Positions 20,745-59,421 of a stretch of 64,000 nucleotides of DNA are shown piece after piece; positions within the stretch are counted from its first letter, which is position 1, and every line of letters begins with the position of its first letter. This stretch comes from Natrinema mahii (GTDB lineage Archaea > Halobacteriota > Halobacteria > Halobacteriales > Natrialbaceae): positions 124,001-188,000 of the forward strand of contig JHUT02000001.1 in the NCBI GenBank assembly GCA_000690595.2, given 5' to 3'. The translations under genes were made by a program, and so were the position numbers. Under the pieces are notes generated by a model. The model was not told the origin of the DNA and searched no databases. It saw nothing but the letters and a program-made list of their open reading frames with translations.

Positions 20745-20832
20745 ACTATAGTAGCCACTGAAAGTCATTGCATACCCGATCGCACGATGGCTGTGCGATC
20801 GGTGTGTAAATCATTTCAGTTGTTACTATAGT
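20745..20832. mobile_element. Palindromic MITE-like element, copy 1
   Basis: This 88-bp imperfect palindrome begins ACTATAGTAGCC and ends TTACTATAGT, with a central GATCGCAC...GTGCGATC stem. Two arms can be told apart: arm A contains GTCATTGCA, and arm B, read on the other strand, contains GATTTACACACC. The same arms recur at 55537-55620 (inverted) and 59335-59421 (same orientation). There is no coding capacity. Size, palindromy and multiple copies fit a miniature inverted-repeat element moved by a transposase encoded elsewhere. Confidence 0.8.
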
Positions 20833-55113: not shown

Positions 55114-55551
55114 ATGGACTACGACACGGACGACGGTCGGGCGGACGAGCCAGCGACGATCGAACGGGACGGACGAACGATCACGTTTCACTCCCGGTCT
55201 CGAGCGGCGGTGACCGGGACGTTCGAAGACGGCGACGTCGCCTACGCGAACACCGGGTTCTACGACGACGGCCGCTTCGGCGACACGATCCTCGAGGACG
55301 GCGTCGCGTTCGGCGACGACGTCGACGCGCCGTTTTCGGGGACGGTCGTCTTCGAGATCGGCGACGAACCGGGCGTCGCCGTCGAATCGGACCGCGTCGT
55401 CGTCACGGTCTCGGACTACGGGAGCGACGGGACCGTCATCACGTCGCTGACGACCCGACGGGCGGATTACCGGATGGGCGCGCCGACCCACGAGCATCCG
55501 CGGGCAAGCGAGTGGCTCGAGGCCATCGACCCCGATGATAGTAGCCGTTGA
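55114..55551 (+). CDS. Unknown haloarchaeal protein with a MITE-derived C-terminus
   Basis: The 145-residue acidic protein starts MDYDTDDGRADEPATIERDG. It is mostly beta-strand with no membrane or metal motif. The mobile repeat begins at 55537, so the last four residues (SSSR-like tail, DSSR) and the stop codon TGA are supplied by the element. The original C-terminus was probably different, and the protein may be truncated or only slightly altered. I do not recognise the family. Confidence 0.6.
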   Translation: MDYDTDDGRADEPATIERDGRTITFHSRSRAAVTGTFEDGDVAYANTGFYDDGRFGDTILEDGVAFGDDVDAPFSGTVVFEIGDEPGVAVESDRVVVTVSDYGSDGTVITSLTTRRADYRMGAPTHEHPRASEWLEAIDPDDSSR

Positions 55552-55620
55552 AACGATTGACACACTGATCGCAACGCTATCGTGCGATCTGGTGTACAAT
55601 GACGTTCAGCGGCTACTATC
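55537..55620. mobile_element. Palindromic MITE-like element, copy 2 (inverted)
   Basis: This 84-bp palindrome begins GATAGTAGCCGTTG and ends CAGCGGCTACTATC, with a central GATCGCA...TGCGATC stem. Arm order is reversed relative to copies 1 and 3: its left arm matches arm B of copy 3 (CGATT...CACACTGATCGCA), and its right arm matches arm A (GACGTTCAGCGGCTACTAT). It overlaps the end of the 55114 gene and replaces its stop codon. About 3.8 kb separate it from copy 3. Confidence 0.85.
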
Positions 55621-55666
55621 GGTGGGACTCCCGGTCGGGCACTCCGTCCGGAGACGTCTGCCCGAG

Positions 55667-59334: not shown

Positions 59335-59421
59335 TTATAGTAGCCGCTGAACGTCATTGCACACCTGATCGCATGACAGCGTTGCGATCAGTGTGTGAAT
59401 CGTTGCAACGGCTACTATAGC
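59335..59421. mobile_element. Palindromic MITE-like element, copy 3
   Basis: This ~86-bp palindrome begins TTATAGTAGCCGCTGAACG and ends AACGGCTACTATAG, with GATCGCA...TGCGATC at the centre. It has the same arm order as copy 1. Together with the inverted copy 2 it brackets the MacB-like operon (55952-59192) and the AbrB-like remnant. It lies in the gap between the PGF-CTERM gene and the ABC ATPase start and may affect both. Confidence 0.85.

Follow-up and report, generated by a model that had tools for sequence, protein, structure and literature searches.

A near-palindromic 80-bp IS630-type MITE in Natrinema mahii and other Halobacteria

Copies in the window and structure of the element

Three copies of one 80-bp element, each with a 2-bp duplication, lie within the 64,000-nt stretch of Natrinema mahii DNA analysed here (the window; Table 1). 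The full 86-bp unit has the general form CTATAGTAGCC...GGCTACTATAG. A first-pass annotation had described three palindromes of about 85 bp with the second copy inverted relative to the others; all three were found, their exact limits were fixed by the sequence and a family profile, and the inversion was borne out. The palindromic unit is real, but its conserved form is C-TA-[80 bp]-TA-G, and the empty sites described below show that the three outermost bases at either end belong to the target and not to the element. When the family profile was run over the whole window, nothing was found beyond the three copies (best other E-value 1.9). Copy 1 is intergenic, and copy 3 lies about 20 bp beyond the stop of gene 60303-59437(-). 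The insertion point of copy 2 is the stop codon of ORF 55114-55551. The end of this ORF reads GAT TAG in an empty relative and GAT GAT AGT AGC CGT TGA at the filled site; thus, copy 2 adds four residues and a new stop.

Table 1. Positions of the three copies and their flanking duplicates in the window
Feature	Position	Strand	Basis
86-bp unit of copy 1	20746-20831	+	sequence and family profile
MITE copy 1, 80 bp, arm A first	20749-20828	+	sequence; family profile E 6e-24
Left target duplicate of copy 1 (C-TA)	20747-20748		deduced from the empty sites of other copies
Right target duplicate of copy 1 (TA-G)	20829-20830		sequence
86-bp unit of copy 2	55536-55621	-	sequence and family profile
MITE copy 2, 80 bp, inverted vs copies 1 and 3	55539-55618	-	sequence, profile
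GA where the left TA duplicate of copy 2 would be	55537-55538		TA in the G004 empty site
TC where the right TA duplicate of copy 2 would be	55619-55620		complementary to the left GA
86-bp unit of copy 3	59335-59420	+	sequence and family profile
MITE copy 3, 80 bp, intergenic	59338-59417	+	sequence, profile
Left TA of copy 3 target duplication	59336-59337		sequence, profile
Right TA of copy 3 target duplication	59418-59419		sequence, profile

The two arms of the element differ: arm A is AGTCATTGCACACC and arm B is ACGATTCACACAC. This asymmetry, recorded earlier for the window copies, is kept in about 80 aligned copies of the host genome and across the class. The element is 80 bp long, with inverted terminal repeats and no coding capacity, and its consensus fold has a terminal stem of 18 pairs. 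Single-strand folding of the three window copies gave z values of -7.5 to -8.9, and none of 200 shuffles was equally stable. An Rfam search of the window returned tRNA only, and the element matches no curated family. Among 79 distinct copies, 72 cells carried changes on both sides of a pair, whereas shuffles gave 21.8 and slid controls no more than 26. These changes fall mainly in the terminal stem, where columns 12-14 pair with 76-78, and one more such pair lies in the central stem; the two-sided changes of the terminal stem are GCCACTGA/TCAGTGGC, GCCGCTGA/TCAGCGGC, and GCTCTTGA/TCAAGAGC. Because kinship among the copies inflates such counts, the covariation is treated as suggestive. The end-specific A and B segments remain different and are not homogenised. 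The paired terminal changes are suggestive of either selection for pairing or templated correction within the hairpin. That the element keeps its palindromic form through its own DNA hairpin is a tentative idea, and a somewhat doubtful one; if true, a DDE-transposed element would be subject either to correction templated by its hairpin or to selection that favours cruciform ends.

Several structural variants were also observed. At window copy 2, the flanking duplicates have changed from TA/TA to GA/TC, a complementary change located beyond the element ends that would accord with the hairpin idea. A longer version of 124-126 bp occurs three times in the host genome (L051:919-1044, L041:1102-1227, and L059:19877-20000); the loops of these copies hold a similar 40-bp insert, CTCACGTCGCTCACTTCGAACCGCG, which marks them as a sub-family. 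At L081:6026-6053 (host C7), a deletion derivative has no central hairpin, and CTATAGTAGCCACTGAAACGGCTACTATC alone is left.

Copy number, empty sites, and target duplication

In the 3.79-Mb host genome, the end TATAGTAGCC occurs 119 times, versus 3 times for a reversed control pattern. Profile searches, run on fetched stretches surrounding the copies, revealed about 85 copies, nearly all of equal length. Six identical copies occupy six unrelated host loci (L044, L046, L060:3497, L073, L080, and L083), which indicates recent copying. In the search for further copies in related genomes, proposed in the first-pass annotation, the element was found in 24 of the 24 other genus members first searched and in 88 of 292 Halobacteria genomes, representing 25 of 77 genera. 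It is also present on plasmids of Natrinema, Haloarcula, Natronorubrum, Natrialba, and others; the phage records searched gave no match. At C14:46761-69476 of the host, about 15 copies are packed densely into 23 kb, and one of them sits within an IS-like repeat with the end GGCTCTGTTGAAATCC.

The evidence for insertion comes from comparisons between sister species, in which the joined flanks of 31 copies were used as queries. Clean orthologous empty sites, which the earlier annotation had suggested looking for, were obtained for 10 copies. The empty site is CTAG for copies L057, L065, L068, L080, L088, and L093. For example, G006 has gtg|CTAG|cca at the L057 site, where the flanks are 96-100% identical, and G042 has cat|CTAG|tcg at the L088 site, where they are 97-99% identical. 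Other targets were CTAT (L094), ATAG (L087), CTAA (L055:8911, which is CTAG in one species), and, for window copy 2, CC-TA-ATCGGGG in G004, again a CTAA target. At L049 the empty site (TTAA) is not as clean, its flanks showing small differences. An empty X-TA-Y becomes a filled X-TA-[80 bp]-TA-Y in these comparisons, window copy 2 with its GA and TC flanks being the exception, and the net gain per insertion is 82 bp, that is, the 80-bp element plus one TA. Copies L094, L055:8911, and L087 are decisive because their odd flanking base is present in both the empty and the filled states. The target duplication is therefore fixed as TA.

The element prefers CTAG as its target. This tetramer occurs 19 times in the window, one third of the second-order expectation, and accounts for 1.7% of its TA sites; both flanking TA are intact in 63 copies, of which 44 sit in the context C-TA...TA-G. 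The possibility had been raised that the copies occupy the same sites in all strains, but at the majority of the sites tested one or more sister species lack the element. Five orthologous sites are filled in both of the species compared, namely those of window copy 1 (G004, same orientation), L078 (G042), L087 (G006), and L049 and L088 (both G004); this indicates that some insertions are old.

At two orthologous sites, the elements of G004 (L161 and L291) and of the host (L049:962 and L088:1056) lie in opposite orientation. TIR-TIR inversions of IS are known (PMC3004938). The host and G004 copies at the L088 site differ at about 7 of 86 positions and their flanks by 2-3%; since the copies are more divergent than the flanks, independent insertion into one CTAG is favoured over end-to-end inversion. 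The flanks of L088:1056 contain, at query positions 721-802 and 885-961, a different dispersed repeat, CCCTCCCCAGCCGATTC..., which occurs as inverted pairs and has many copies in sister genomes. Tandem copies were seen in the host at C4:183169-183332, C6:94602-94768, C3:193294-193387, and C8:58767-58952, with a single TATA or GATC between them, one TA short of a simple second insertion into a duplicate. The sharing of TATA or GATC prompted the idea of a 4-bp TATA duplication, which was ruled out by empty sites with one TA.

Candidate IS630 partner and alternative explanations

TA duplication together with a CTAG preference is the signature of IS630/Tc1-mariner elements; a statement in PMC2170065, citing Tenzen and Ohtsubo (1991), is that IS630 duplicates TA and prefers CTAG. 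The genus was searched for the IS630 nuclease domain PF13358 (DDE_3). The elements found are about 1,057 bp long with ends CTATAGTAACCGTTAGAACTTTC and CTATAGTAGACGTTAGAAATAATTGCTCAC; their termini read CTATAGTA(A/G)CC, and their flanks have a C...G context like that of the MITE. Their proteins are IS630 transposases (NCBIfam NF033545, Pfam DDE_3 and HTH), and public records name their relatives ISNma7 (Natrialba magadii) and ISNpe3 (Natrinema pellirubrum). A terminal TAGTA(G/A)CC and the CTAG target are common to the MITE and this group, which thus supplies the IS with matching terminal repeats that the first-pass annotation had proposed seeking. The similarity between arm A and the IS right end extends past the terminal 8 bp (shuffle p 0.0025); 17 of 18 IS copies prefer that end, and internal identity is moderate, at 14/25. 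For arm B, the match to the left end is weak (p 0.09), and the right end fits it about equally. The two kinds of element differ in that the IS encodes a two-ORF transposase, whereas the MITE is gene-free and has a subterminal GCTGAAA. A longer palindromic relative at L191:2348-2459 of G017, TAGTAGTCGTTGAAACGATTCACTCACC...GACTTTCAACGACTACTGTAG, is perhaps an intermediate between the IS ends and the MITE.

The host genome contains two copies of this IS, C9 and C2:1-1061. Copy C9 is 91.7% identical to ISNma7 and has a stop in its first ORF. In C2:1-1061 both ORFs are open, with the frame arrangement of ISNma7, and from its sequence it is apparently an intact IS630 element with matching ends. Across 292 genomes, the co-occurrence counts for MITE and IS630 were 33/55/32/172 (odds ratio 3.2, p 1e-4, uncorrected for phylogeny). 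A DDE_3 search of the copy-rich genomes G004 and G006 gave no match, which implies that the partner has been lost there or that another transposase acts; this is the chief reason for doubt about the partner.

Taken together, the palindromes are very probably copies of a non-coding MITE that is mobilised by an IS630-family transposase acting in trans, and the likeliest source of this enzyme is the ISNma7/ISNpe3 group. The copies, the empty sites, and the matching IS630 support the earlier view of a small mobile palindromic element of single ancestry, and the family that was then left unnamed can be assigned, from its TA duplication, CTAG preference, and matching ends, to the IS630/Tc1-mariner-type MITEs. 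In the proposed mechanism, a transposase of the ISNma7/ISNpe3 group would recognise both ends through the terminal TAGTAGCC and the differing internal parts of arms A and B, excise the 80-bp element, and paste it into a TA, preferably in a CTAG context, with duplication of the TA. Arm A is probably the right-end remnant of an autonomous IS630-type ancestor, and arm B may be its left-end remnant, with a small loop between them.

The strongest competitor keeps a TA-duplicating MITE and changes the partner, which could be another IS630 lineage or a CTAG-using IS5/IS427-type element with ends nearer GCTGAAAGTCATTGCACAC. High-copy genomes lacking DDE_3 favour it, as does the subterminal GCTGAAA of the MITE against GTTAGAA in the IS. 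However, GTTAGAA was the sole type among several dozen IS630 end pairs whose termini match; a 1,049-bp autonomous candidate in L202 was resolved into two separate MITEs, and a second haloarchaeal IS630 group (L251-L258, about 40% identity) yielded no TAGTAGCC termini. Such a partner is rather unlikely. A far smaller likelihood attaches to the category of short mobile repeat (SMR) established for Haloquadratum walsbyi, even though SMRs are comparable in size (80-110 bp) and in copy number and also have inverted repeats (PMC3119063). Flanks alone had suggested an SMR-like element without target duplication, a reading overturned by the aligned empty sites; the SMR definition excludes both target duplication and a similar-ended transposon, whereas a TA duplication and IS630 ends were found here, and the MITE shows no special targeting of IS605-type palindromes.

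Single-strand mobilisation of a REP/REPIN-like palindrome, with a Y1 (RAYT) transposase as the enzyme, would account for the strong hairpin, the GTAG near the ends, and the mirrored changes of the terminal stem. A DDE enzyme is nevertheless indicated by the CTAG target and by the TA duplication, including that at CTAT, CTAA, and ATAG sites, and the unit is 80 bp rather than 20-40 bp, with two arms that represent distinct ends; this explanation is highly improbable. The same is true of a fixed regulatory or structural sequence, such as a terminator or protein-binding site. The intergenic location of copies 1 and 3, the latter just beyond a stop codon, would suit such a role, but sister species have near-identical flanks without the element at the same sites, identical copies occur in unrelated contexts, and there is no Rfam family. 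As a secondary matter, the MITE may have a local effect on some neighbouring genes.

Relation to known elements and significance

MITEs of the IS630/Tc1-mariner type, such as plant Stowaway and cyanobacterial Nezha, are short, have inverted ends, duplicate TA, and are mobilised in trans by the transposase that an autonomous relative encodes. Compared by description only, the present MITE differs from both in host domain and sequence, in its 80-bp length, in being near-fully palindromic, and in its CTAG preference. REP/REPIN sequences with RAYT are likewise palindromic, with high copy numbers and GTAG near their ends, but they have a far shorter unit, a Y1 enzyme, and no TA duplication. The MITEs and SMRs of Haloquadratum walsbyi (PMC3119063) are, as here, transposase-free, high-copy haloarchaeal repeats, and the SMRs are similar in length; by description, these SMRs differ in having neither a target duplication nor a matching transposon (PMC3119063). 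Searches of the open-access literature for the end sequences, for haloarchaeal IS630 MITEs, and for ISNma7/ISNpe3 revealed no description of the family. By that literature, the family is a new one within a well-known class of mobile elements: a very short, widespread, near-fully palindromic IS630-type MITE of Halobacteria.

In sum, haloarchaeal genomes are filled with a repeat family for which most of the plasmid records carrying it have no annotation. This family now has a name and a likely partner transposase, and its insertions supply precise presence/absence markers. The MITE preferentially occupies CTAG and destroys every CTAG that it enters. In Halobacteria this tetramer is strongly under-represented, and a conserved orphan methylase has it as its motif (PMC6471742). 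Considering this rarity and the orphan-methylase motif, an element that occupies CTAG is a force to consider in the CTAG question.
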